In this document: positions 13,192-29,209 of the stretch, piece after piece | Position numbering within the stretch: position 1 is the first letter of the stretch | How the letters are laid out: every line of letters begins with the position of its first letter | NCBI RefSeq assembly: GCF_004327285.1 | Contig: NZ_QJUI01000006.1 | Location: 1-64,000 of the forward strand | Origin: Phytopseudomonas daroniae | Lineage (GTDB): Bacteria > Pseudomonadota > Gammaproteobacteria > Pseudomonadales > Pseudomonadaceae | DNA: 64,000 nt | Reading direction: 5' to 3' | Notes under the pieces: model-generated | The model's input: the letters and a program-made list of their open reading frames with translations, nothing else | Databases searched by the model: none | Told to the model about the DNA's origin: nothing | Made by a program: the position numbers and the translations under genes

Positions 13192-13869
13192 ATGACCTTT
13201 TCCATCGTCGGGCGTTGCCCGGAAACCGGCCAGTTGGGCATCGCCATCAGCTCGTCGAGCATCGCGGTCGGTGCACGCTGCCCCTGGCTGCGTGCCGGCG
13301 TCGGCGCGGTGGCCACGCAGAACGTCACCCTGCCCGCCCTCGGCCCGCAAATTCTCGACCTGCTGGAACAACAGACGCTGGAACCGGGCGAAGCATTGCA
13401 GCGCGCCCTGAGCGCCAATGGCTGGAGCCAGTATCGCCAGGTCACGGTGATCGACAGCCACGGCCGCACCGCGCTGTTCAGCGGTAAAGAGGCGCTGGGG
13501 CTGTACAACGCGATGGCCGGTGAACAGTGCGTGGCGGCGGGTAATCTGCTGTCGAGCGAAGCGATCATCCAGACCATGGTTCAGGCATTCGAGAATGCCA
13601 GCGGGCAACTGGCCGACCGCCTGCTCGCCGCCATGCATGCGGCGATGGCCGCCGGTGGCGAAGCCGGCCCGGTGCATTCGGCCGCGCTCAAGGTGGTGGG
13701 CGACCTGATCTGGCCGATCATCGACCTGCGGGTCGACTGGGCGGATAGCGACCCCATTGGCCAACTGGATGGGCTGTGGCAGGCCTACCGATCACAGATG
13801 CAGGATTACCTGACTCGCGCCCTCGACCCCACGGCCGCGCCGAGCTACGGAGTGCCGGGTGATGAATGA
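13192..13869 (+). CDS. DUF1028 family protein (Ntn-hydrolase-like)
   Basis: 225 residues matching DUF1028. It opens MTFSIVGRCPETGQLGIAISSSS and has a CPWLRAGVGAVATQN segment and a GEAGPVHSAAL region. Members are thought to have an N-terminal-nucleophile hydrolase-like fold and often sit next to Rid proteins and amidohydrolases, but no activity has been firmly assigned to my knowledge. AGGAGG lies about seven bases upstream of the ATG. The gene lies 9 bases after ridA and overlaps the next gene by 8 bases. Confidence 0.88.
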   Translation: MTFSIVGRCPETGQLGIAISSSSIAVGARCPWLRAGVGAVATQNVTLPALGPQILDLLEQQTLEPGEALQRALSANGWSQYRQVTVIDSHGRTALFSGKEALGLYNAMAGEQCVAAGNLLSSEAIIQTMVQAFENASGQLADRLLAAMHAAMAAGGEAGPVHSAALKVVGDLIWPIIDLRVDWADSDPIGQLDGLWQAYRSQMQDYLTRALDPTAAPSYGVPGDE

Positions 13870-15025
13870 GCCCAGCAGCCGCGCCCTGCTCGAGCGGCTG
13901 ATCGGCTTTGCCACGGTCAGCCGTGATTCCAATCTGCAGTTGATCGAATTCATCCGCGATTACCTGGCGGGGTTAGGCGTCGACAGTGAGCTGTTCCACA
14001 ACGCCGAAGGCACCAAGGCCAATCTGTTCGCCACCATCGGCCCCCGTGATCGAGGCGGTGTGGTGCTGTCCGGCCACACCGACGTGGTGCCGGTGGACGG
14101 CCAGGCCTGGACGGTCGACCCGTTCCACCTGACGGAGCAAAACGGTCGCCTGTATGGCCGAGGCACGGCGGACATGAAAGGTTTCATCGCCTGCGTGCTG
14201 GCGGCGGTGCCGGGTTTTCTGCAACGCCCACTGCAGGTGCCGGTGCACCTGGCCTTTTCCTACGATGAAGAGGTGGGCTGCCTCGGCGTGCGCTCCATGC
14301 TCGCCGAACTGGAAAAGCGCCCGCACAAACCGACCCTGTGCCTTATTGGCGAACCCACCGAACTGAAGCCGGTGCTCGGCCACAAGGGCAAGCTGGCGAT
14401 GCGCTGTGAAGTGCATGGCGCAGCCTGCCATTCGGCGTATGCGCCCTACGGCGTGAACGCCATCGAATATGCGGCGCGCCTGATCGGCCATCTGAGTGAT
14501 ATCGGCGCGCGGCTGGCGCAGCCCGAGCATCACGACGCGCGCTTCGACCCGCCCTTCTCCACCGTGCAGGCCGGCCTGATCAAGGGTGGCCGTGCACTGA
14601 ACATCGTGCCCGCGGAATGCGAGTTCGATTTCGAGGTGCGCGCGTTACCGGGTTTCGATGCGCAGAGCGTGGCGGATGAATTGCAGAGCTACGCCGCCCA
14701 GCAACTGCTGCCGAAGATGCAGGCGGTGAGCGCCGATAGCGACATTCGTCTGCAACCGCTGAGCGCCTACCCCGGCCTCGCCACGCCGCCCGACAGCGAG
14801 GCTGCACGTTTGCTGGCGAGGCTCTGCGGGTCGAGTGATTTCGGCACCGTGGCCTTCGGCACCGAAGGCGGGCTGTTCGACGGAGCCGGCATCCCCACCG
14901 TGGTCTGCGGCCCCGGCAGCATGGATCAGGGTCACAAGCCCGACGAGTTCGTCAGCGTGGAGCAGCTGCAAGGGTGTGATGCGATGCTCTCGAGACTGGC
15001 GGATTACCTACGCGAGCCGGTTTGA
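13862..15025 (+). CDS. M20 family deacylase, acetylornithine deacetylase-like
   Basis: A zinc-dependent M20 amidohydrolase of 387 residues, most like ArgE. Metal and catalytic motifs are SGHTDVVPVDG (about 70), GRGTADMKGF (about 100), DEEVGCLG (about 135) and GEPTELKP (about 163), with EGGLFDGAGIPTVVCGPG near the C-terminus. It would remove an acyl group from an amino acid or amine. The operon context (monooxygenase, RidA, DUF1028) suggests a catabolic role rather than arginine synthesis. The ATG at 13862 overlaps the upstream gene by eight bases; a GTG at 13859 is the alternative. REP-type repeats follow the gene. Confidence 0.88.
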   Translation: MNEPSSRALLERLIGFATVSRDSNLQLIEFIRDYLAGLGVDSELFHNAEGTKANLFATIGPRDRGGVVLSGHTDVVPVDGQAWTVDPFHLTEQNGRLYGRGTADMKGFIACVLAAVPGFLQRPLQVPVHLAFSYDEEVGCLGVRSMLAELEKRPHKPTLCLIGEPTELKPVLGHKGKLAMRCEVHGAACHSAYAPYGVNAIEYAARLIGHLSDIGARLAQPEHHDARFDPPFSTVQAGLIKGGRALNIVPAECEFDFEVRALPGFDAQSVADELQSYAAQQLLPKMQAVSADSDIRLQPLSAYPGLATPPDSEAARLLARLCGSSDFGTVAFGTEGGLFDGAGIPTVVCGPGSMDQGHKPDEFVSVEQLQGCDAMLSRLADYLREPV

Positions 15026-16225: not shown

Positions 16226-16549
16226 GTGTCGATCTCACCACCATTACTGTCTGCACCTTACCCCAGTAATGCCTTGCTACGGAGCCGCCGCTTGCAAAGT
16301 TTTTTCGTATGTCTCGAGCATATTTTTACTAATTTTCCTCCTCGCCAGACTGACGCACCATATCCCTCACTCGAACAACGCACAGGTCGCGACGACGACC
16401 TGAACGGATTGCCGTTCACACTCACCAGGCGAGCGGACGCCCATAACAAGAACCATCCCCCTGACGCGTGGTACGACGCGCAGGTTCGCCGATTCGGCCA
16501 TTACTGCCTCAGACCTGACTACAACGTAAAAAACAGCGAGGGAGTTTCC
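16226..16549. other. Divergent intergenic region
   Basis: This 324-base gap separates divergent LysR and binding-protein genes, so it must hold both promoters. An AT-rich patch at 16296-16340 is the best promoter candidate. I see no clear LysR box, RNA gene or repeat. Confidence 0.4.
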
Positions 16550-17605
16550 ATGTTCAAGCACTTGCGTCCATGCATCCGGGCCGCCATCGGCCTGTCCATT
16601 CTGGCCGGCGCCAGCACCTCGGCCCTGGCCGATTCTTCCAGCCTGACGGTGATTTCCTTCGGCGGTGCCACCAAGGTCGCGCAGACCGCCGCCTACTTCA
16701 AACCCTTCGAGCAGAGCGGTGCCGCCAAGGTGATCGCTGGCGAATACAACGGCGAATTGTCCAGGGTGAAAGCCATGGTCGATGTCGGCCAGGTCACCTG
16801 GGACGTGGTCGAAGTGGAAAGCCCGGAGTTGCAGCGCGGCTGCGAGGAGGGCCTGTTCGAGCGCCTCGACCCGGCCATTCTCGGCGATACCGCCAACTTC
16901 ATTCCCGGCACGGTCAGCGAATGCGGCGTGGCCAGCTACGTCTGGTCGATGGTGCTGGCCTATAACGGCGACAAGCTGAAAACCGCCCCGAAATCCTGGC
17001 AGGACTTCTGGGATCTCAAGCAATTTCCCGGCAAGCGTGGCCTGCGCAAGGGTGCCAAATACACCCTGGAAGCCGCCCTGCTGGCCGATGGCGTGAGCCG
17101 CGAAGAGCTGTACAAGGTGCTGGCCACACCTGAAGGCGTCAACCGCGCCTTCAAGAAACTCGACGAGATCAAACCGTCCATTCAATGGTGGGAGGCCGGT
17201 GCCCAGCCGCCGCAGTGGCTGCTGGCCGGAGACGTCGCCATGTCCGCGGCCTACAACGGCCGTGTCGGTGTCGCACAGAAAGAAGGCGCCAACCTGGCCA
17301 TCGTCTGGAACGGCAGCCTGTACGACCCGGATCACTGGGCCATCGTAAGCGGCAGCCCGAACAAGGCCGTGGCCGAGCAGTTCATCAAGTTCGCCAGCCA
17401 GGCGGATACCCAGAAGGTGTTCTCCAGCCAGATCCCTTATGGCCCGGTACACAAGCAGGCCCTGGCCGAGCTGCCGGCAGAGGTTCGGGCGCAACTGCCG
17501 ACCGCCGAAGCCAACATGGCCGGCGCACAACTGGTGAACGCCGAGTTCTGGATCGACCACGGCGAAGAACTGGAAGAGCGCTTCAACGCCTGGGCTGCGC
17601 GCTGA
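16550..17605 (+). CDS. PotD-like ABC transporter substrate-binding protein
   Basis: 351 residues. A Sec signal peptide (MFKHLRPCIRAAIGL, cleaved near ALA-DSSS at about residue 26) precedes a family-1 extracellular solute-binding fold with SFGGATKVAQTAAYFKPFE and a WEAGAQPPQWLLAGDVAMSAAYNGR segment typical of spermidine/putrescine-type receptors. It binds a cationic or amine-containing ligand in the periplasm (inferred). GAGGGAG lies seven bases before the ATG. No permease or ATPase of the Pot type is next to it; the neighbouring ABC genes belong to the polar amino-acid family and have their own binding protein. A strong terminator follows. Confidence 0.88.
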   Translation: MFKHLRPCIRAAIGLSILAGASTSALADSSSLTVISFGGATKVAQTAAYFKPFEQSGAAKVIAGEYNGELSRVKAMVDVGQVTWDVVEVESPELQRGCEEGLFERLDPAILGDTANFIPGTVSECGVASYVWSMVLAYNGDKLKTAPKSWQDFWDLKQFPGKRGLRKGAKYTLEAALLADGVSREELYKVLATPEGVNRAFKKLDEIKPSIQWWEAGAQPPQWLLAGDVAMSAAYNGRVGVAQKEGANLAIVWNGSLYDPDHWAIVSGSPNKAVAEQFIKFASQADTQKVFSSQIPYGPVHKQALAELPAEVRAQLPTAEANMAGAQLVNAEFWIDHGEELEERFNAWAAR

Positions 17606-17789: not shown

Positions 17790-18623
17790 TTAAGGCAGCG
17801 GTTCGAACTTGAGCTCGCTCAGGCTCTGTACCTTGTCTTCACGTACCATCTTGTACTCGGTGTTCGGGCCGATCCAGCGCTCCCAGATGGCGTCGATTTC
17901 ACCTGCCTCCTCCATCGCGTAGAGGGTCTCGTTGACCTTGGCGAGGAAGGCCGGTTCGCCCTTGCGCATACCTGCGCCGACGGGTTCCAGGGCCATGGGC
18001 TCCTTGGCGATGGCCAGCTCGATGCCGCTTTGCTTGGCCTGCCCGACCAGCTTGATGGCGGTCATGGTGTTAGTGACCAGGCCGATCACCTTGTTCTGCT
18101 GCAAGGCCATGTAGGCCGAACCGGTGTCCTGGAAAGTCACGGGCGTGGCATCAGCCAGTCGAATGGATTGCTCGGAGGTGGAGCCCTTGGTCGAGCTGAT
18201 GCGCTTGCCCTTGAAGAAGTCCTTGGGCTGATCGGCATTGGCGGCGCGCACCACCAGGGTTTCCTTGGCGATGTAGTACGGGTCGCTGAACTGGATCTGG
18301 TCGGCGCGGCTCTTGGTGTAGGCCAGATTGGCGAAAATCACATCGACGCGGCCCATCTTCACTTCCGGAATACGTGCCTCGACGGACAGTGGCTTGAGTT
18401 CCAGTTCCACGTCCAGGTGCTTGGCCAGTGCCTTGCACAGATCCACGTCCATGCCCACCAGTTCGCGGGTTTTCGGATCCGGCGCCGAGAACGGTGGCAC
18501 GTCGGCGTAGACGCCGCAGCTCAGACTCTTCTTGCTCATCACATCACTCAGCTGATCGGCCTGGGCCAGCGAAATCGCCAGCGGGGACAGCGCGAACACA
18601 GCCAACAAACGCTTCAAGCTCAT
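17790..18623 (-). CDS. Amino-acid ABC transporter substrate-binding protein (family 3)
   Basis: 277 residues. The signal peptide MSLKRLLAVFALSPLAISLAQA is followed by a family-3 solute-binding fold with SCGVYADVPPFSAPD, GMDVDLCKALAKHL, RVDVIFANLAYTKSRADQIQFSDPY and a C-terminal IDAIWERWIG. It captures an amino acid in the periplasm for the ABC transporter encoded upstream. The ATG at 18623 has GGAG eight bases upstream. It is the last gene of a four-gene minus-strand operon. The preceding 130 bases (17656-17789) carry nothing recognisable. Confidence 0.92.
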   Translation of the reverse strand: MSLKRLLAVFALSPLAISLAQADQLSDVMSKKSLSCGVYADVPPFSAPDPKTRELVGMDVDLCKALAKHLDVELELKPLSVEARIPEVKMGRVDVIFANLAYTKSRADQIQFSDPYYIAKETLVVRAANADQPKDFFKGKRISSTKGSTSEQSIRLADATPVTFQDTGSAYMALQQNKVIGLVTNTMTAIKLVGQAKQSGIELAIAKEPMALEPVGAGMRKGEPAFLAKVNETLYAMEEAGEIDAIWERWIGPNTEYKMVREDKVQSLSELKFEPLP

Positions 18624-18669: not shown

Positions 18670-19407
18670 TCAGTGGCTGCGCAGGTCGGAAATGAAGCGC
18701 TGAGCACGCGGGTGTTCAGGCTGTTGGAAAAACGCCTCGGGTTTGGACTTTTCCAGGATCTGGCCGGCGTCCATGAACCAGATGGTGTCGGCCACTTCCC
18801 GGGCAAAGTTCATCTCGTGGGTCACGCACATCATGGTCATCCCCTCCTTCGCCAGGCCCTTCATGACGCTGAGCACCTCGCCAACCATTTCCGGATCAAG
18901 GGCGCTGGTGGGCTCGTCGAACAGCATCACCGGTGGCTCCATTGCCAGGGCACGGGCAATCGCCACACGCTGCTGCTGACCGCCCGAGAGCTGGGCCGGA
19001 TAAGCACCAGCCTTGTGCGAGAGACCTACGCGGTCGAGCAACTGCATGGCCCGCGTCTTGGCTTCGGAGGCCTTGAGGCCCCGTACTTTGGTCGGGGTAA
19101 GAATGATGTTGTCCAGTGCCGACAGGTGCGGGAACAGGTTGAAGCTCTGGAACACGAACCCTACCCGGCTGCGCAGACGGTTGACGTTGGCATCGGTACC
19201 ATTGACGTCGTGGCCGTCGAACAGGATCTGGCCTTGCTGGATGTTCTCCAGGCGATTGACCGTACGGATCAGGGTCGACTTGCCGGAGCCTGAAGGCCCG
19301 CACAGCACCACCACTTCGCCGCGCTTCACGTCGGCACTGATATTGGTCAGCGCCTGGTACTCGCCGTACCACTTGTTGACCTGGGAAAACATGATCATCG
19401 GATGCAT
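18670..19407 (-). CDS. Amino-acid ABC transporter ATP-binding protein
   Basis: 245 residues of the GlnQ/GltL class. Walker A is GPSGSGKST (about 38-46), Q-loop [10 protein letters not shown], signature [15 protein letters not shown] (about 138), Walker [13 protein letters not shown], and the switch His is in VTHEM. It energises import by the two permeases immediately upstream and the binding protein downstream. A second ATG three codons in ([10 protein letters not shown]) is also possible. The gene is 10 bases after the second permease. Confidence 0.95.
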
Positions 19408-19417
19408 GGGCGCGCCC

Positions 19418-20161
19418 TCAATTATCGGTAGTCAGTACGGGGCTCTTGCTCGCCACGGCCGCCGAGGTGCCCAGACGCTTGCGGGCGATACGGCGCTCGA
19501 CTGCGTTGGCCACTCGGGTCAGGCCGTAGCACAGCACGTAGTAGGTGATCGCCAGGATGAAGAACACCTGGAACGGCTTGGTCAGCAGCTGGTTATTGAC
19601 CTGGTTGGCGGCAAAGGTGACTTCCTGGACGTTGATCACGTAGCCCAGGGAGGTCTCCTTGATGATCGAGATGAACTGGCTGATCAGGCTCGGCAGCGAG
19701 TTGTACAGCGCCTGCGGCAGGATTACCCACGCCGTGGTGCGCATATAACCCAGGCCCAGAGCCCGCGAGGCCTCGTACTGCCCCGGCGGCAACGCCTGGA
19801 TGCCACCACGCACGATCTCGCACAGATAGGCGCTCTGGTACAGCACCAGGGTGCAGAGCATGGTGGTGAAACCGGTGATGTTGTGACCGATGATCAGCGG
19901 CACCAGGAAGTAGGTCCAGAAGATCACCATCAGCAGCGGAATGCCGCGCATCACGTAGACCCAGACCGTGGCCGGGTAGCGCAGCCAGCGCCACGGCGAC
20001 ACCCGCGCCAGGGCCATCAGCACCCCCAGCGGAAAAGCCAGAATCAATGCCAGCGCAGCGAGAATCAGCGTGGTGGCGAGGCCGCCCAGGGCGCCATGGG
20101 GGTACTGGCCGACCAGGAACAACGTCCAGTTATCACGCAGGATCGTGAAGATATCGAACAT
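19418..20161 (-). CDS. Polar amino-acid ABC transporter permease
   Basis: 247 residues of the HisMQ/GltJK permease family, with five predicted membrane helices and the EAA loop [23 protein letters not shown], shortened here: EASRALGLG then ILPQAL. It pairs with the upstream permease to form the translocation channel. An N-terminal segment [19 protein letters not shown] is typical. The gene starts seven bases after the first permease gene. Confidence 0.93.
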
Positions 20162-20167
20162 CGCCGC

Positions 20168-20869
20168 TTACCTCGCCATCGCTTTGTTGAAATGACGAGC
20201 CAGCAAGGCGCCGAGCCCCATGAGTGCCAGGGAGAACCCCAGGTACACCAGGGTCGCGACCAGGTAGGCCTCGAAGGTACGGAAGGTGTAGTTCTCCACT
20301 TCCCGCGTGGCGTAAGTCAGCTCCACCACGCCAATGGCCATGACCAGGCTGGTGTTCTTGAACAACAGCACCGTGTGGTTGATCAGCGATGGCAGGCTGT
20401 TACGGATGCCTTGCGGCAGGATCACATAGCGCATCGAGCGGATATAGCCCAGGCCCATGGCCCGCGCGGCCTCGGTCTGCCCCGTGGGAATGGCCCGCAG
20501 GCCGCCACGGATGTCTTCGCTGAAATAGGCGGCCTGGCACAGGCCCAGGGCGATCAGCGAGAAGATGAATTCGGTGCTGTAGTTGGCCAGCCAGATCTGC
20601 GTGGATTCCGACAGCAGAGTCGGGATGCCGAAGTACCACAGCATCAGTTGCACCAGGGTAGGCACGTTGCGGTGGTAGGACACATAGGCTGCCACCGCGC
20701 CTTCGGCATAGCGGTTGCCGGTCAGGCGAATCGACACCAGCACCAGGGCCAGCGCCATGGCCAGACACCAGGCGAAGAAGGCCAGCTGCAGCGTCATGCC
20801 GATGCCCTTCAGGATCAGCTCGGCGTACTCGCCCTGCAGGATCGCGGAAAGATCGAAATCAGTCGTCAT
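20168..20869 (-). CDS. Polar amino-acid ABC transporter permease
   Basis: 233 residues of the same HisMQ/GltJK family. Its EAA loop is EAARAMGLGYIRSMRYVILP, and it has five membrane helices. It is the promoter-proximal gene of the transporter operon; the 114 bases upstream (20870-20983) separate it from a same-strand SDR gene and contain a short inverted repeat (GCCAGTCTGGGCTGGC). It could be co-transcribed with the SDR. Confidence 0.93.
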   Translation of the reverse strand: MTTDFDLSAILQGEYAELILKGIGMTLQLAFFAWCLAMALALVLVSIRLTGNRYAEGAVAAYVSYHRNVPTLVQLMLWYFGIPTLLSESTQIWLANYSTEFIFSLIALGLCQAAYFSEDIRGGLRAIPTGQTEAARAMGLGYIRSMRYVILPQGIRNSLPSLINHTVLLFKNTSLVMAIGVVELTYATREVENYTFRTFEAYLVATLVYLGFSLALMGLGALLARHFNKAMAR

Positions 20870-20983: not shown

Positions 20984-21730
20984 TCAGATTTCTCCAGGGC
21001 GAGCGGTGGAAAGCCCACCGGGAACCTGCAGGGTCGGGGTGATTTCCATATGGCCGATGTTCACCGCCACCGGTGCTGCGATGGCGAAGGCGATGGCATC
21101 GGCGATGTCCTTCGCCTCAGGCAATTCGAAACCTTCCAGGAAACGCTTGCGCACTTCTTCGGAGTCGCCGTGCACATGGGCGAAGATGTCGGTAGCCACA
21201 CGCCCCGGACAGATCTCGGTGACCCGCACGCGCTTGCCGAAGGCATCCACCCGCAGCTGTTTGGAGAGCATGCTCACTGCGGCCTTGGTCGCGTGATAAG
21301 TCGCGTTGCCGCCGAAGTTGTAGGCGGCGGCGATGGAGCTGATGTTGACGATGTGCCCACGGTCGCGCTCGACCATGCCCGGCAAGGCCAGGCGAGCGAT
21401 CTGCAGCACCGCCCGCAGGTTGACGTCGACCAGCAGGTCGATGCCTTCGGCGTCGGCCTTGAGCAGCGAGCCGGGACGGTCGACCCCAGCATTGTTGATC
21501 ACCACATCGAAGACATTGCTACGGAACAACTCGGTCAGCCCGGCCAGGTCGGTGACGTCGATGGCGTGAGCGATGCATCCGGTGCGCTCGGCCAACTCGG
21601 CCAGCTTGTCGGCGCTACGGGCCAGGGCATGAACCTGCAGCCCCTCGGCACACAGACGCTCGACGACGGCAGCGCCGATCCCGGAGGAAGCGCCGGTGAC
21701 CAGCGCGGTTTGGTAGTCGGAAAATGGCAT
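20984..21730 (-). CDS. Short-chain dehydrogenase/reductase
   Basis: 248 residues, classical SDR. It has TGASSGIG (cofactor binding, about 12-19), NNAG (about 81), the catalytic Ser in ISSIAA, and YHATK (Tyr and Lys of the active site, about 147-151). The Asp in AIDVTD suggests NAD(P) handling as in oxidoreductases acting on 3-hydroxy acids or amino-acid derivatives; the YdfG-like subgroup acts on 3-hydroxy amino acids, but the substrate here is not proven. A Nac-type box lies 112 bases upstream, linking it to the lactam/5-oxoproline-type gene set. Confidence 0.9.
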   Translation of the reverse strand: MPFSDYQTALVTGASSGIGAAVVERLCAEGLQVHALARSADKLAELAERTGCIAHAIDVTDLAGLTELFRSNVFDVVINNAGVDRPGSLLKADAEGIDLLVDVNLRAVLQIARLALPGMVERDRGHIVNISSIAAAYNFGGNATYHATKAAVSMLSKQLRVDAFGKRVRVTEICPGRVATDIFAHVHGDSEEVRKRFLEGFELPEAKDIADAIAFAIAAPVAVNIGHMEITPTLQVPGGLSTARPGEI

Positions 21731-21841: not shown

Positions 21842-21856
21842 ATAAGCTGCGCTTAT
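21842..21856. promoter_or_regulatory. Nac-type box (ATA-N9-TAT) upstream of the SDR
   Basis: ATAAGCTGCGCTTAT is a perfect dyad matching the ATA-N9-TAT pattern recognised by Nac. It overlaps the pxpA stop and lies 112 bases upstream of the SDR start. Confidence 0.6.
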
Positions 21857-22626
21857 GACCCAGCCAGCAGCTGTGTAATCGGGGTGATCAGCCCGCCCTG
21901 GCGCTCGATGCTGGCGCGGATGCTGCGGGCGAAGTCGACGGCGCCCGGCGTGTCGCCGTGCAGCAGGATCGAGCGCGCATTCACCGCCACGCGCTTGCCG
22001 GTGATGGTGGTCACCGTGCCGTCCTCGAGCAGTTGGGCGATGCGCGCCATCACCTGCCCGTGATCGCTGACTACCGCGCCGGGCGTACCGCGCGGCACCA
22101 GCAGGCAATCGTCGTCGTAGGCACGGTCGGCGAGGAAGGTGGTGGCCACGCGCAGGCCGCATTTGTCCGCCGCACGCTCGATGGCCTGGCTGCTCGACGA
22201 GCTGATGATGATGCCCGGGTCGAAGCTGGCCACCGCCCGCACCAGCGGCCCGGCCAGTTCGGCATCGGCCGCGGCCATATTGCCCAGGGCGCCATGGAAG
22301 CTCATATGGCTGACCCGGTGACCGGCTGCCCTGGCGATGCCACTGAGGGCGCCAAGCTGGTAGATCACCATGCAGCACAGCTCCTTGAGCTCGATATTCA
22401 TCCGCCGCCGGCCGAAGCCCTGCAGGTCGGGGAAGCCGACATGGGCGCCGAGGTCGATGCCCAGGGCCTTGGCCCGGCGCACCGTGGCATCCATGATCAG
22501 CGGGTCGCCGGCATGGAAACCACAGGCCACGTTGGCCGAGGAAATCAGCGCCATCAGCGCTTCGTCCTCACCCATTTTCCAGGGGCCGAAGCCCTCGCCC
22601 AGGTCGGCGTTCAGGTCGATCTTCAC
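21853..22626 (-). CDS. pxpA: 5-oxoprolinase subunit A (LamB/YcsF family)
   Basis: 257 residues matching LamB/YcsF: it opens MKIDLNADLGEGFGPWKMGED and has SANVACGFHAGDP and GAHVGFPDLQGFGRR. In PxpABC this subunit carries the ring-opening function on 5-oxoproline, with PxpB and PxpC handling ATP-dependent activation. Here the subunits are encoded with a biotin carboxylase and carriers, so the true substrate may be another lactam or amide. The start overlaps the carrier-like gene by four bases. It is the last gene of the operon. Confidence 0.92.
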   Translation of the reverse strand: MKIDLNADLGEGFGPWKMGEDEALMALISSANVACGFHAGDPLIMDATVRRAKALGIDLGAHVGFPDLQGFGRRRMNIELKELCCMVIYQLGALSGIARAAGHRVSHMSFHGALGNMAAADAELAGPLVRAVASFDPGIIISSSSSQAIERAADKCGLRVATTFLADRAYDDDCLLVPRGTPGAVVSDHGQVMARIAQLLEDGTVTTITGKRVAVNARSILLHGDTPGAVDFARSIRASIERQGGLITPITQLLAGS

Positions 22627-23039
22627 GATGCCAGCTCCTCGAGTTCGATCAATGTCTGGCCATAGCCAACGGTTTGGCCATCCGCCACCGATACCTGCCG
22701 CACGCGCCCTGCCACCGCGGCGCGCACCGGCAGAAACAGTGCGCCGACCCGCAGTACGCCAACCAGTTGACCCAGGCTGATCACGTCACCGCCTTGCACG
22801 TAGGCCGCCGTTTCGTCCGGGTGGGTGGCGAAGAACACACCAGGGCCGCTGGCCTTCACCGCACATGCGAGACGTTCTCTGCCGCGCGCAGGCGTTACGC
22901 TGGCCGATAGCGAAGCGCTCGGACTGATTCGCGCCGTACGCCGCAGCAGTACGCTCTCGTCGCCCCGTTTCAACTCGATGGCGGTCAACCCGGCCTCGCC
23001 AAGCCAGATCGCCAACTGGCGAATCTCGTCAATCTTCAT
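22623..23039 (-). CDS. Biotin-carrier-like (BCCP fold) protein without the biotinylation Lys
   Basis: 138 residues. It is organised like AccB, with an N-terminal helix (IRQLAIWLGEAGLTAIELKRG) and a C-terminal biotinyl/lipoyl fold (GDVISLGQLVGVLRVGALFLPV, AAVAGRVRQVSVADGQTV). At the place of the invariant AMKM it reads VGAL, so the lysine that accepts biotin is missing. It therefore cannot be a normal carrier; it may be structural, regulatory or a decoy for the genuine AccB encoded at 26.3-26.7 kb. GAGGAA lies seven bases before ATG 23039. It is coupled to pxpA by a four-base overlap. Confidence 0.85.
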   Translation of the reverse strand: MKIDEIRQLAIWLGEAGLTAIELKRGDESVLLRRTARISPSASLSASVTPARGRERLACAVKASGPGVFFATHPDETAAYVQGGDVISLGQLVGVLRVGALFLPVRAAVAGRVRQVSVADGQTVGYGQTLIELEELAS

Positions 23040-23050
23040 CAGGGGTTTCC

Positions 23051-24007
23051 TCAACTGCGCAGCGCCAGCTGCTGGCGGGTGCGTTCGATAAATGCCTGGT
23101 TGGCCTCGAGCGCATCCAGGGCCTGGTCATAACTGCAGGCGACGAAGCGCACCTTGCTGCCGATAGCGGCCTGGCCCAGCCGCCAGATATCCGCCTCGAT
23201 CACCGTGGCGAACTTCGGATAGCCACCGCTGGGTTGCGCATCGCGCATCTGCACGATGGGCTGGCCGCCGTGGGGCACCTGGATCACGCCCGGCACGATG
23301 CCGTGGGAGCGGATTTCCAACGGCCGCTCCGGCAACAGCGGCGTGCCCTCCAGGCGATAGCCGTAGCGGTTGCTCTGCGGGGTGATCTTCCACTCGCCGG
23401 CGAAGAACGCATCCCGCGCCTGGGCGCTGAAACACTCGAACTCCGCCGCCGGCAGCACCCGTATCGCCGGGCGGCCTTCCACCGTCAGCGGCAGGGCGGC
23501 GAACACCGACTCGACGCCGAAGTCGGCGGGCTGGTCGAGACCGGGACGCGCTGCGGAAATGCGGTCGCCGCGCTCCAGAGCGCGGCCCTGCCAGCCGCCG
23601 AACTCGCCGCGCAACTGGGTACTGCGCGAACCCAGCACCTCGGGAACGTCGACGCCGCCGGCCAGGCACAGGTAGACACGGCTGCCCGAAGTCGGATACG
23701 TCAGCGTCAGCACCTGGCCCTTGCGCCCGTGGGCCACCCAGTTGGGCGGCAGGCGCTGGCCATCGAGGCGCGCGGCGCAGGCGGCGCCGCTGACGGCGAA
23801 GGTGCAGTCCTCGACGAAGCGTGCCTCGAAGGGGAACAGCGGAATCTCGATGGCCGCCGCATTGAGGTCGTTGCCCAGCAGCAGGTTGCCGAGCTGCAGG
23901 GACAGCGCGTCCATCGCCCCGGAGGTGCCGACGCCGTAACCCAGGCTGCCGTGGCGACCGAGATCCTGCACGGTGGCCAGCGCCGTGGCGCTGATGATTT
24001 CGATCAT
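23051..24007 (-). CDS. pxpC: 5-oxoprolinase subunit C / biotin-dependent carboxyltransferase family (KipA)
   Basis: 318 residues of the KipA/AHS2 family, which also forms half of the carboxyltransferase domain of urea carboxylase. Typical segments are ATVQDLGRHGSLGYGVGTSGAMD, the GNDLNAAAIEI region and a C-terminal VPHGGQPIVQMRDAQPSGGYPK. With PxpB it couples ATP to activation of a lactam or amide. The start ATG (24007) overlaps the pxpB stop by four bases, so their stoichiometry is probably coupled. Confidence 0.92.
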   Translation of the reverse strand: MIEIISATALATVQDLGRHGSLGYGVGTSGAMDALSLQLGNLLLGNDLNAAAIEIPLFPFEARFVEDCTFAVSGAACAARLDGQRLPPNWVAHGRKGQVLTLTYPTSGSRVYLCLAGGVDVPEVLGSRSTQLRGEFGGWQGRALERGDRISAARPGLDQPADFGVESVFAALPLTVEGRPAIRVLPAAEFECFSAQARDAFFAGEWKITPQSNRYGYRLEGTPLLPERPLEIRSHGIVPGVIQVPHGGQPIVQMRDAQPSGGYPKFATVIEADIWRLGQAAIGSKVRFVACSYDQALDALEANQAFIERTRQQLALRS

Positions 24008-24654
24008 CGGATGATCCTCTCGATACGCAGACGCAGTCGATCGCCCGGCTGCAGGATCGCCGGCGGATTTCGTTGGGAGTCGAAGAACACCATCGAGGTA
24101 CGGCCGATGGTGTTCCAGCCGCTGGGGCCGGCCGACGCGGAGATGCCGGTCTGCACGCCACCGATGGACACCGCGCCGGCGCCGATGCTGAGCACCGGCA
24201 CCTGGCGCCGTGGCGTGGCCAGGCGCGGATCCATGCCGCCGAGGTAGCAGTAGCCCGGATGGCTGCCCAGGGCGTAGACCGGGTACAGCGGTTCGCAATG
24301 CAGGTTGGCGATGGTCTCGATATCCAGGCCGGTATGGGCGATGACATCGGCCATGTGCGGGCCGTCTTCGCCGCCGTAGACCACCGGCAGCTCGACGATG
24401 CGTCCCTCGATCGGCAACGGCTGACACTGCTCCCAACCTTCGAGCAGTTGCGTGCTCAGCCCAGCGATATCGCGCGGCGGCGTCTTGAAGGTCAGCATCA
24501 GGTTATTCATCCCCGGCACCGCCTCATGTACCGCCGGCCACTGCTGCGCCAGCCGGGCCAGGGCCCAGATGCGTTGCTGGGTGACCAGTTGCAGGTCACC
24601 GGGCGCTTCGAACAGCAGGGCCGTGGTGCCCAGCAGACTGATATGCGCGGTCAT
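24004..24654 (-). CDS. pxpB: 5-oxoprolinase subunit B / allophanate hydrolase subunit 1 family (KipI)
   Basis: 216 residues of the KipI/AHS1 family. Visible signatures are [51 protein letters not shown], then [22 protein letters not shown]. It is the partner of the KipA-type subunit encoded next, and in 5-oxoprolinase both support ATP-dependent lactam opening. Four-base overlaps with the biotin carboxylase gene upstream and pxpC downstream place it inside a tightly coupled operon. Confidence 0.92.
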
Positions 24655-26003
24655 GACGAAGCCCTCTGCTGCAACCAGCGTTCGAGATGGTGAATGTCCA
24701 CCGCGCCGGCGCAGAACGCCGGATCCTGGAGAATCTCGCGGTGCAATGCGAGGTTGCTGGCGATGCCGCCGATGGCCATCTCGCTCAGGGCCAGGCGCAT
24801 GCGCGCCAGCGCTTCGTCGCGAGTCGCGCCCTGGGTGATGACCTTGGCGATCATCGAGTCGTAGTACGGCGGCACCCGATAGCCCTGGCTGACGTGGGAG
24901 TCGACGCGCACGCCAATGCCACCGGGCAATTGCCACTCGCTGACCAGGCCCGGCGTGGGCATGAAGGTCTGCGGGTCTTCCGCGTTGATGCGGCATTCCA
25001 GCGAATGGCCGAGCGTGCGAATGTCCGCTTGGGTCAGACTCAAGCGCTCGCCCAAGGCCATGCGAATCTGCTGCTGGACGATGTCGATGCCGGTGGTCAC
25101 TTCCGTCACCGGGTGCTCGACCTGCAGCCGTGTGTTCATCTCGATGAAGTAGAAAGCGTCGTTCTCGAACAGAAACTCGAAGGTGCCGACCCCGCGATAG
25201 CCGATCTGCCGGCAGGCCTCGGCGCAACGTTCGCCGACCTGGGCGATCAGTGCCGGGTCGATACCGGGGGCGGGCGCTTCCTCCAGCACCTTCTGGTGCC
25301 GGCGCTGCATCGAGCAGTCCCGCGAACCCAGCCACAGCGCATTGCCATAAGCATCGCAGAGCACCTGGATTTCCACATGGCGCGGCTTGCCGAGGAACTT
25401 CTCGATATACAGCTCGGGGTTGCCGAACGCCCGCCGTGCTTCCTCGCCCGTTACCGCGATGGCATCGAGCAACTGCGAGGCCTCCTGCACCACACGCATG
25501 CCGCGACCGCCACCGCCGCCGGCGGCCTTGACGATCACCGGGTAGCCGATTTCCTCGGCAATCGCCAAGATCGCCGATGGCTCGGCCGGCAGAGCGGAGT
25601 CCGGCCCCGGCACGCAGGGCACCCCGGCCAGGCGCATGGCGCGCTTGGCCGCGACCTTGTCGCCCATGGTGCGAATGCATTCGGCGCTGGGGCCGATAAA
25701 GGTCATCCCGGCATGCTCGATACGCTCGGCAAAGGCCGCGTTCTCGGAGAGAAAGCCATAGCCGGGATGAATGGCCTGGGCTCCGCTCACCCGCGCGGCA
25801 TCCAGCAGGGCCAGCTGATTCAGGTAGCTCTGCCCGGGCGCCGCCGGGCCGATGCACAGCGCGTCATCGGCCAGCTGCACATAACGAGCATCGCGATCGG
25901 CCTCGGAATAGACCGCAACGGTCTTCAGCCCCAGGCCCTTGCAGGCGCGCTGGATACGCAGGGCGATCTCGCCACGGTTGGCGATCAATACCTTGTCAAA
26001 CAT
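24651..26003 (-). CDS. Biotin carboxylase (AccC family)
   Basis: 450 residues. ATP-grasp biotin carboxylase that carboxylates carrier-bound biotin with bicarbonate. Visible are [31 protein letters not shown], the glycine-rich ATP loop [22 protein letters not shown], and [16 protein letters not shown]. It is an AccC paralogue dedicated to this cluster, not the housekeeping accBC pair. The ATG at 26003 has GGAG seven bases upstream. Its 5' leader and first eleven codons have been tandemly duplicated, producing two overlapping mini-ORFs ahead of it. The next gene (pxpB) overlaps by four bases. Confidence 0.93.
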
Positions 26004-26239
26004 CGTGCTTCTCCGTGGCGAGATCGCCCACACGGGCTACGCCCGCCGGGCACTTTGGCTGCGCCGCTGCGCCGCGTTGCGGCTGGTCACCACAGTTGGC
26101 GATCAATACCTTGTCAAACATCGGGGTTCTCCGTGGCGAGGTCGCCCACACGGGCTGAGCCCGCCGGGCACTTTGGCTGCGCCGCTGCGCCGCGTTGCGG
26201 CTGGTCACCACGGTTGGCGATCAGAACTTTGTCGAACAT
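26004..26239 (-). repeat. Two 118-bp tandem leader repeats creating chained mini-ORFs
   Basis: The start region of the biotin carboxylase gene recurs at exact 118-bp intervals (ATGs at 26003, 26121 and 26239). Each extra unit copies the first ~10 codons (MFDKVLIAN), then continues into a GC-rich dispersed element (GCCGCAACGCGGCGCAGC...). Each encodes a 41-residue ORF (26114-26239 and 25996-26121) that stops 8 bases inside the next ATG. The last repeat supplies GGAG to the real gene. Translation through the chain by termination-reinitiation is plausible; the peptides themselves may have no function. Confidence 0.85.
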
Positions 26240-26258
26240 CAGAATTTTCCGCCCTTGC

Positions 26259-26690
26259 TTACGCGATGCGCACCAGCACCTGGCCCGCTTCGACCTCGCT
26301 ACCGCCCGCCACCAGAATCGCCTCGACCACGCCAGCGGCCTGCGCCTTGAGCGGGTGGAACATCTTCATCGCCTCGAGCACCGCCAGGGTCTGCCCGGCG
26401 CTGACCTGAGAGCCGACTTCGATGAACGGCGGCTGATCCGGCGCCGGGGTGAAGTGCACGATGCCATGCAGCGGCGCCTTGGCCTGGTAACCACTGACCT
26501 TCTCGCTTACCGCCTGCGACTCGGGCGTGGCAGGCTGGGAAACCGCTGCCGGCGCAGCGACTGAGGCGCACACAACCTGGCCGTGCTCACGCAGCAGACG
26601 CAGCTGCGCGCCCTCCTCGCTCAGGCTCAGCTCGCTCAGGTCGGAGTCGACCATCAGCTCGATCAATGCTTTTATGCGTTCGGGTTTCAT
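26259..26690 (-). CDS. Biotin carboxyl carrier protein (AccB family)
   Basis: 143 residues. An N-terminal helical region (IKALIELMVDSDLSELSLSE) and a Pro/Ala linker precede the biotinyl domain with the intact EAMKM motif (biotin on Lys, at about residue 108). It delivers carboxybiotin from the adjacent biotin carboxylase to a carboxyltransferase, here presumably the PxpB/PxpC pair. It is the first gene of the minus-strand operon. A palindromic Nac-type box lies 86 bases upstream. Confidence 0.92.
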   Translation of the reverse strand: MKPERIKALIELMVDSDLSELSLSEEGAQLRLLREHGQVVCASVAAPAAVSQPATPESQAVSEKVSGYQAKAPLHGIVHFTPAPDQPPFIEVGSQVSAGQTLAVLEAMKMFHPLKAQAAGVVEAILVAGGSEVEAGQVLVRIA

Positions 26691-26775: not shown

Positions 26776-26790
26776 ATAAGGCCTCCTTAT
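26776..26790. promoter_or_regulatory. Nac-type box upstream of the carboxylase/pxp operon
   Basis: ATAAGGCCTCCTTAT fits ATA-N9-TAT with near-perfect dyad symmetry. It overlaps the stop codon of the Nac-like gene and is 86 bases upstream of the accB-like start. Confidence 0.65.
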
Positions 26791-27713
26791 GACCCCCCGC
26801 CCTCTGCTGGCGGGCGGCTCGTGCGCATCTCGGCGACCAGCTCCAGCAGGATCGCCTTGACCGCCTGCGCCGGTACCGAAAGCGGCAAGTGGCCGGACAG
26901 GCACAGCGCCAGCGGCGCCTCGATATCCGGTTCGACGACGCGGCTCAGGTGCAGGTCATGGGCATCCGCCAGCACCCGGGCGGCCGACTCCGGGAGGATG
27001 GTCGAGCCGAAATGATCGGCCACGGCGGCGGCCAGGGTGGTGGACGACTCGATTTCCGCGACCACCTGAGCGCTCATCTCGATACGCAGAAAGGCCTCGT
27101 CGACCAGGCGACGCATGACGTTGTAGGTGCGCGGCAACAACAGCCCGTACGCCGCCACTTCGCTCAGGGCAATCCGTTCGCGCCCCTGCAATGCCGGTTC
27201 GGCGCTGACCAGGTAGAGCGGCTCGCGCATCAGTTGGATAAAGCTCAGGCCATGCACTTCGCGCCCACCATAGAGCACCGCCATGTCCATGCGGCCGTTC
27301 ATGATCAACTCACTGAGGGTGGTGCCGAAATTCTCGTTGAGGTACAGCAGGATGCCCGGATGCTTCTCGCGCACCCGCTTGAGCAACGGCAACGACAGGG
27401 TCGACGCCGCGGTGCCCGGCGCCAGCCCCACCGACACCGGCCCGGACAGCGCGAGGCCACTGGCGTTGACGTCGCTCTGCGCCTGCTCGCACTGGCGCAG
27501 GATCACCTGAGCGTGGCCATACAGCACCTTGCCGGCCTCGGTCGGCGTCACCCCGCGCTTGGTGCGGATCAGCAGTTGTTGCTGCAGTTCGGACTCCAAA
27601 GTGCTGAGTTGCTGGCTCAACGCAGGCTGGGCGATATGCAATACATCGGCGGCCTGGGTCAGGCTGCCGATGTCGACGATCTTGACGAAATATTTGAGGC
27701 GACGGAGGTTCAC
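26787..27713 (-). CDS. Nac-like LysR-type regulator
   Basis: 308 residues. Very close in pattern to the nitrogen assimilation control protein: NLRRLKYFVKIVDIGSLTQAA, HIAQPALSQQ, LLIRTKRGVTPTEAGKVLY, ILRQCEQAQ, then VSVGLAPGTAAS. Classical Nac acts without a co-inducer under nitrogen limitation; this protein may or may not. The GTG at 27713 is chosen because the family begins two residues before RRLKYF; a longer start at 27767 would add 18 residues. Four Nac-type boxes are found at the promoters in and around this cluster, one of them 82 bases upstream of this gene. Confidence 0.88.
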   Translation of the reverse strand: MNLRRLKYFVKIVDIGSLTQAADVLHIAQPALSQQLSTLESELQQQLLIRTKRGVTPTEAGKVLYGHAQVILRQCEQAQSDVNASGLALSGPVSVGLAPGTAASTLSLPLLKRVREKHPGILLYLNENFGTTLSELIMNGRMDMAVLYGGREVHGLSFIQLMREPLYLVSAEPALQGRERIALSEVAAYGLLLPRTYNVMRRLVDEAFLRIEMSAQVVAEIESSTTLAAAVADHFGSTILPESAARVLADAHDLHLSRVVEPDIEAPLALCLSGHLPLSVPAQAVKAILLELVAEMRTSRPPAEGGGS

Positions 27714-27794
27714 GGTGCGCTGCTCTGTACAGATGAATACTCCCTGGCAGAGCAATAGGCGGGCCAACGCATACGGAAAGCTGCGCCTGGATAC

Positions 27795-28000: not shown

Positions 28001-29209
<1,209 letters not shown>

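Follow-up and report, generated by a model that had tools for sequence, protein, structure and literature searches.

The window considered here, a stretch of 64,000 nucleotides of Phytopseudomonas daroniae DNA (NCBI RefSeq assembly GCF_004327285.1, contig NZ_QJUI01000006.1, positions 1 to 64,000), carries six consecutive genes on its minus strand: accB, accC, pxpB, pxpC, a carrier-like gene and pxpA. We posit, with a probability of about 0.52, that their products make up a split, dedicated, biotin-dependent enzyme that would open an amide or a lactam for nitrogen scavenging. A sequence-only reading, made by a model from the letters of the window, had named the same six components, and family searches bear out that composition; the span that it gave, 22623-26690, takes in five of the genes and leaves pxpA (21853-22626) outside.

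AccB (26259..26690; Biotin_lipoyl, E 6e-17) is a biotin carboxyl carrier protein (BCCP) with an EAMKM biotinylation site and a lysine in the biotin column, and it was rightly taken for a genuine biotin carrier. AccC (24651..26003) is a second copy of biotin carboxylase (TIGR00514, 672.3 bits; cut-off, 626.5) and has the expected residue at each catalytic position checked, these being the positions that we take, from the E. coli enzyme, to be catalytic. Because the same genome holds another AccC beside an AccB on contig C4, plus two fused urea carboxylases, the AccBC pair of the cluster is an extra copy. PxpB/KipI (24004..24654; PF02682, 204.4 bits; TIGR00370, 182.3 bits; cut-off, 145.55) comprises carboxyltransferase (CT) subdomains C and D, and PxpC/KipA (23051..24007; PF02626, 301.2 bits) comprises subdomains A and B; both belong to the CT domain families of urea carboxylase. 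PxpC scores 321.2 bits against the equivalog NF045499, whose cut-off of 500 bits it does not reach. Its structural model (predicted local distance difference test [pLDDT], 96.2) finds its best PDB match in E. coli YbgK (5dud_A; template modelling score TMq, 0.89) and also matches the M. smegmatis Msmeg0435-Msmeg0436 complex and the CT domain of urea carboxylase. The carrier-like gene (22623..23039 from its ATG; Biotin_lipoyl, 29.7 bits) encodes a BCCP paralogue with no lysine at the biotin position, and pxpA (21853..22626; PF03746, 308.6 bits) encodes a LamB/YcsF-type hydrolase that is a Ser109/Gly115/Thr163/Leu221 variant.

Four-base overlaps, which the sequence-only reading saw through most of the chain, are real at three junctions (accC/pxpB, pxpB/pxpC and carrier/pxpA); pxpC and the carrier-like gene overlap only if the latter begins at the listed TTG, which would lie at 23054. 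The gap between accB and accC is 255 bp, since two tandem repeats of about 118 bp sit there (26004..26239, minus strand), each of which duplicates the 5' end of accC and closes with a Shine-Dalgarno (SD)-like GGAG and a new ATG. Scans for promoters, terminators and sigma-54-like sites gave no excess over shuffled sequence.

The repeat unit is an observation in its own right. It sits a short way past the start of genes of the biotin-carboxylase type, with the two tandem copies at accC (26004-26239, minus) and one copy at a fused urea carboxylase on C11 (G000:C11:65550-65702). Each copy starts after the ATCGCCAACCG (LIANRG) motif, has an SD-like GGAG, re-creates the gene start and leaves a short leader frame. 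Of the 249 genomes sampled from the genus, 7 carry the unit, and all ten copies read sit at such a gene start.

Conservation of the cluster

Searching named genomes with the PxpC of the window as the query gave 46 loci, and the fractions that follow are query dependent and no census. These loci span Pseudomonas, Variovorax, Cupriavidus, Bradyrhizobium, Roseomonas, Erwinia and others; the gene set thus reaches far from Pseudomonas. The nearest of them is from P. dryadis (PxpC identity, 95%), and among 249 sampled genus genomes, with the window's own genome counted, 12 hold a PxpC of at least 71% identity. The co-occurrence of the six genes, for which the sequence-only reading had suggested a genome search, is found in 41 of the 46 named loci. 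Two of the five incomplete loci (L180 and L199) start inside accC at a contig end, two from Erwinia (L185 and L189) are without accBC, and in one from a metagenome-assembled genome (L197) no accC was seen. The intact sites of AccC and the conservation of the unit uphold the earlier idea of a dedicated biotin carboxylase together with a KipI/KipA-type carboxyltransferase.

The six genes form a unit inside a wider conserved cluster: aminotransferase, nitrogen assimilation control (NAC) regulator, the six genes, a short-chain dehydrogenase/reductase (SDR) and an ABC importer. The NAC-type LysR regulator (26787..27767, minus strand; NF008410, 484.8 bits; cut-off, 309) has a homologue in 42 of the 46 named loci. 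Beyond it and divergent from it lies the gene for a class I/II aminotransferase of the PRK06107 type (28001..29209, plus strand; NF004769, 737.7 bits; cut-off, 617). A direct homologue search, on which the counts rest because a screen of flanking open reading frames (ORFs) was swamped by antisense shadow ORFs, finds an aminotransferase above 300 bits in 59 of 64 loci of the NAC/SDR/importer context versus 2 of 79 other pxpC loci; it is on the strand opposite pxpC in 56 of these 59, the exceptions being L096, L102 and L103. On the other side of the six genes, the SDR oxidoreductase (20984..21730, minus; PF00106, 147.2 bits; motifs TGASSGIG, NNAG and YHATK) recurs in 45 of 46 named loci, and the first permease of the polar amino acid-type importer (20168..20869, minus; TIGR01726, 59.6 bits; cut-off, 42.2) recurs in 42. 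The importer is completed by permease 2 (19418..20161, minus; TIGR01726, 89.1 bits, same cut-off), an ATPase (18670..19407, minus; PF00005, 133 bits) and a family-3 substrate-binding protein (17790..18623, minus; PF00497, 116.1 bits). The partners proposed from the sequence alone, aminotransferase, SDR and importer, are thereby sustained; the GABA-type permease, which had been proposed with them, falls away, having been found in none of the 46 named loci. The MFS and OprD genes recur in 13 and 12 of these loci, respectively. Farther out, a 397-aa open frame (16367-17560, minus), flanked by the importer and a LysR gene, matches no Pfam or NCBIfam family under the thresholds applied, and an acetylornithine deacetylase-family protein is encoded beyond the importer (13859-15025, plus; NF005710, 595 bits; cut-off, 412).

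A carrier without biotin

The least expected part of the cluster is the carrier-like protein, which the sequence-only reading had noted as such and which can now be described more closely. In all 46 named loci, the carrier gene adjoining pxpA is without the biotin lysine. We prefer this position-based count to one taken from an alignment of 151 carrier rows (frames of more than 700 aa omitted), in which the biotin column holds K in 80 rows and another residue in 71, a sorting that is circular as a count. The 71 non-K rows share a G-x-LLLPV-type hairpin and a VGYG-like motif, and their near-invariant columns are few. On a tree of 145 distinct carrier rows, with the hairpin columns excluded, one branch splits K from non-K rows (1 change versus a shuffled mean of 48), although that branch is weak (Shimodaira-Hasegawa-like approximate likelihood ratio test [SH-aLRT], 13). 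An AlphaFold model of the protein (pLDDT, 85.6; predicted template modelling score [pTM], 0.57) has 1bdo, a biotinyl domain from E. coli, as its best PDB match (TMt, 0.89). Judged by its sequence, the protein is a BCCP paralogue that would be unable to hold biotin. Ratios of nonsynonymous to synonymous substitution (dN/dS) of 0.15, 0.24, 0.27 and 0.32 against four relatives, well below 1, indicate that it is under purifying selection, although its ratio exceeds those of the nine other genes in three of these comparisons.

On a PxpC tree of 141 rows (144 minus 3 identical; L197 and L111 labelled apart; L216 set to "AccBC only," its accC being cut by a contig end; L146 and L148 counted with both AccBC and the biotinless gene, both having been seen in a wider sequence stretch), presence of the biotinless protein costs only 2 label changes. 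Seventy rows with it sit in a clade of 72 rows (SH-aLRT, 86) whose border is not firm. AccBC is present and the biotinless protein absent in 15 rows of the tree.

Probable substrate and proposed biotin dependence

What might such an enzyme act on? The PxpA of the cluster retains residues that are invariant in 54 PxpA rows, among them N6, D8, E11, H38, H62, D67, R73, H111, D167, H223 and D225. Other positions set it apart from the rest of the rows sampled. In a comparison of 129 PxpA rows, the window included (ten further loci yielded no PxpA row), all 62 rows of the NAC/SDR/importer context have Ser at position 109, where all 67 others have Lys, and Glu163 and Cys221 are each present in 67 of 67 other rows and in 0 of 62 context rows. 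The contig-end locus L111 has both importer-like genes and Lys109 and was counted among the others. Because the other rows include AccBC-bearing sets, the swap goes with gene context rather than with biotin. PxpB behaves alike: Arg154 is found in 75 of 76 other sets (Lys in one) versus 0 of 62 context rows. The residues absent here may mark 5-oxoproline specificity. The same genome carries a second pxpABC set, without AccBC, on contig C44, and this set, together with the residue swaps in PxpA and PxpB, points to a substrate other than 5-oxoproline.

The importer offers a further clue. Its binding protein keeps the Arg by which this family holds an alpha-carboxylate, and it has Asn in place of the Asp that receives the alpha-ammonium in amino-acid binders. 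This feature would suit a biotin-dependent 5-oxoprolinase, that is, an enzyme with the substrate of PxpABC and another energy coupling, as would the homology to PxpABC itself. Against such an enzyme stand the separate AccBC-free pxpABC set of the genome and the loss of Lys109, Glu163 and Cys221, which are missing in all 62 context rows and kept by all 67 others, AccBC-bearing sets among them; we consider it quite improbable, and 5-oxoproline appears an unlikely substrate. Probably, the substrate is instead a carboxylate-bearing compound with a blocked or absent alpha-ammonium group. An amino acid as the product would fit the presence of the aminotransferase. A 2-hydroxyacid dehydrogenase-like frame in some loci, named by eye, gave no firm clue to the substrate.

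In the model that we favor, AccC, with ATP and bicarbonate, would carboxylate the biotin on AccB. PxpB and PxpC would then act as the carboxyltransferase and pass the carboxyl group onto the N (or O) of an imported cyclic amide, much as urea carboxylase does with urea. The activated amide would be opened by the hydrolase PxpA, the carbamate would then lose CO2, and the SDR and the aminotransferase would act on the compound before or after opening. In the same model, the biotinless BCCP paralogue would be a noncatalytic assembly subunit that ties AccBC to PxpBC, by analogy with plant BADC proteins, which are reported to aid the assembly of acetyl-CoA carboxylase. The biotin carboxylase, BCCP and CT parts would all be at hand as well for a true carboxylase with a stable carboxylated product, which PxpA would hydrolyse later or at another bond. 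The loss from PxpA and PxpB of residues that are invariant or nearly so in other sets would agree with that alternative, as would the SDR near the unit in nearly all named loci. We nonetheless judge it unlikely, given that PxpA keeps the residues invariant over 54 rows and that NAC, aminotransferase and importer point to the handling of amino acids or nitrogen. Could AccBC be merely a spare half of an acetyl-CoA carboxylase? NCBIfam does call AccC an acetyl-CoA carboxylase subunit, but neither AccA nor AccD is found among the annotated proteins of the cluster, another AccC exists elsewhere in the genome and the linkage to the pxp genes is conserved, so that we give this idea very little credence.

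Several observations weigh against biotin dependence itself. Four loci, two from Erwinia (L185 and L189) and two from further genomes of the same class (L095 and L099), keep PxpBC, PxpA, SDR, importer, aminotransferase and biotinless protein without a dedicated AccBC; at E no greater than 1e-80, what these genomes contain is a single separate AccC and, in addition, fused urea carboxylases. Presence of AccBC costs 9 label changes on the 141-row PxpC tree, and one Pseudomonas subclade of that tree mixes 10 loci without AccBC and 5 with it. In a loose alignment, the position of the urea carboxylase general base, which is Lys1605 in KlUA (PMC5770610), is Arg in every PxpB row shown. No single column cleanly parts AccBC-linked from AccBC-free sets; PxpC position 58, which does best, places 91% of rows correctly (baseline, 58%), and kinship confounds it. 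Since AccBC is scattered on the PxpC tree and mixed within one subclade, it may be dispensable or replaced by a housekeeping pair. The residue aligned to Lys1605 was also tried as a marker of biotin dependence and rejected: it is Arg with and without AccBC and does not separate the groups.

In that Pseudomonas subclade, accB-accC lie between pxpA and pxpB in L153, L201, L205, L206 and L211, and pxpA-pxpB-pxpC stand without them in L154, L202-L204, L207-L210, L212 and L213. The subclade offers a natural comparison for biotin dependence.

The four relatives that hold the remaining cluster without AccBC, the repeated gain or loss of AccBC on the PxpC tree and the AccBC-free state of the nearest outside rows would agree with an ATP-dependent lactamase of the PxpABC type with a new substrate, in which AccBC would be passengers or take part in another reaction and carboxybiotin would have no part in ring opening. 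We regard this as fairly unlikely. In 41 of 46 named loci, AccBC with intact sites accompanies the pxp genes, PxpB and PxpC have the carboxyltransferase fold, and a homologous pair is found on a biotin carboxylase complex in PDB entry 9yx5. Going by its title, that entry is the long-chain acyl-CoA carboxylase complex of M. smegmatis to which MSMEG_0435-MSMEG_0436, a KipI/KipA-type pair, is bound; AccA3 is among its molecule names. The entry suggests that a pair of this type can bind to such a complex, a matter of assembly and not of the reaction.

A broader proposal builds on biotin-dependent opening. The biotinless BCCP might be an adaptor that docks KipI/KipA-type carboxyltransferases on AccBC, whether the dedicated pair or, in L095, L099 and Erwinia, the fatty acid AccBC. 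The assembly would then work as a lactamase that depends on biotin, and carboxybiotin from the housekeeping AccBC might serve even some "ATP-dependent" PxpABC enzymes. We offer this tentatively and think it rather doubtful.

Comparison with known systems

The open-access literature search brought up no paper that we recognised as describing the cluster. Urea carboxylase and urea amidolyase (KlUC, 3va7; KlUA, 5i8i) resemble it in having biotin carboxylase, BCCP and the same two CT domains, and in that system (PMC5770610) a nitrogen compound is carboxylated and then hydrolysed. The cluster differs in having separate proteins, PxpA for allophanate hydrolase, a second (biotinless) carrier and the Arg aligned to Lys1605. 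Its proteins also leave the urea carboxylase model TIGR02712 (cut-off, 1303.85 bits) unmatched: AccC reaches 481.9 bits, PxpC 175.2 and AccB 35.3, with PxpB, the carrier and PxpA not listed. The PxpABC 5-oxoprolinases (E. coli YbgJK, 5dud; C. glutamicum pxpTABC, PMC13274462) share three families with the cluster and supply the nearest solved structures; the cluster adds AccB, AccC and the biotinless BCCP, and residues common to other PxpA/PxpB sets are replaced in it.

Operons that combine AccBC with PxpABC and do without the biotinless protein (e.g., L153, L201 and L117) have the gene order pxpA-accB-accC-pxpB-pxpC; their PxpA keeps Lys109, and no biotinless BCCP, NAC or similar SDR was seen in the stretches covered. 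In the M. smegmatis complex (9yx5), too, a KipI/KipA-type pair is joined to AccA3, a biotin-dependent subunit that is a separate protein; among the chains of the entry, neither a PxpA nor a biotinless carrier came up, and no paper on the entry was found. The biotinless protein itself has a counterpart in the BADC proteins of the plant heteromeric acetyl-CoA carboxylase, which are BCCP-like and without a biotinylation motif. In PMC11926652, BADC is reported as a "glue" for biotin carboxylase and BCCP, and other work cited there calls these proteins inhibitors. BADC is a subunit of a plant plastid lipid enzyme, and it would be the nearest functional analogy to the bacterial protein.

Against this background, the cluster is of interest in three respects. 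PxpB and PxpC have a carboxyltransferase fold, and PMC13274462 accounts for their use of ATP by an assumption, the phosphorylation of 5-oxoproline by PxpBC; in a natural cluster that brings along a biotin carboxylase, a mechanism by carboxylation can be put directly to the test. The biotinless protein provides a bacterial system in which to ask what carrier look-alikes do. If the proposed reaction is correct, biotin-dependent amide opening would be added to the chemistry of nitrogen acquisition.

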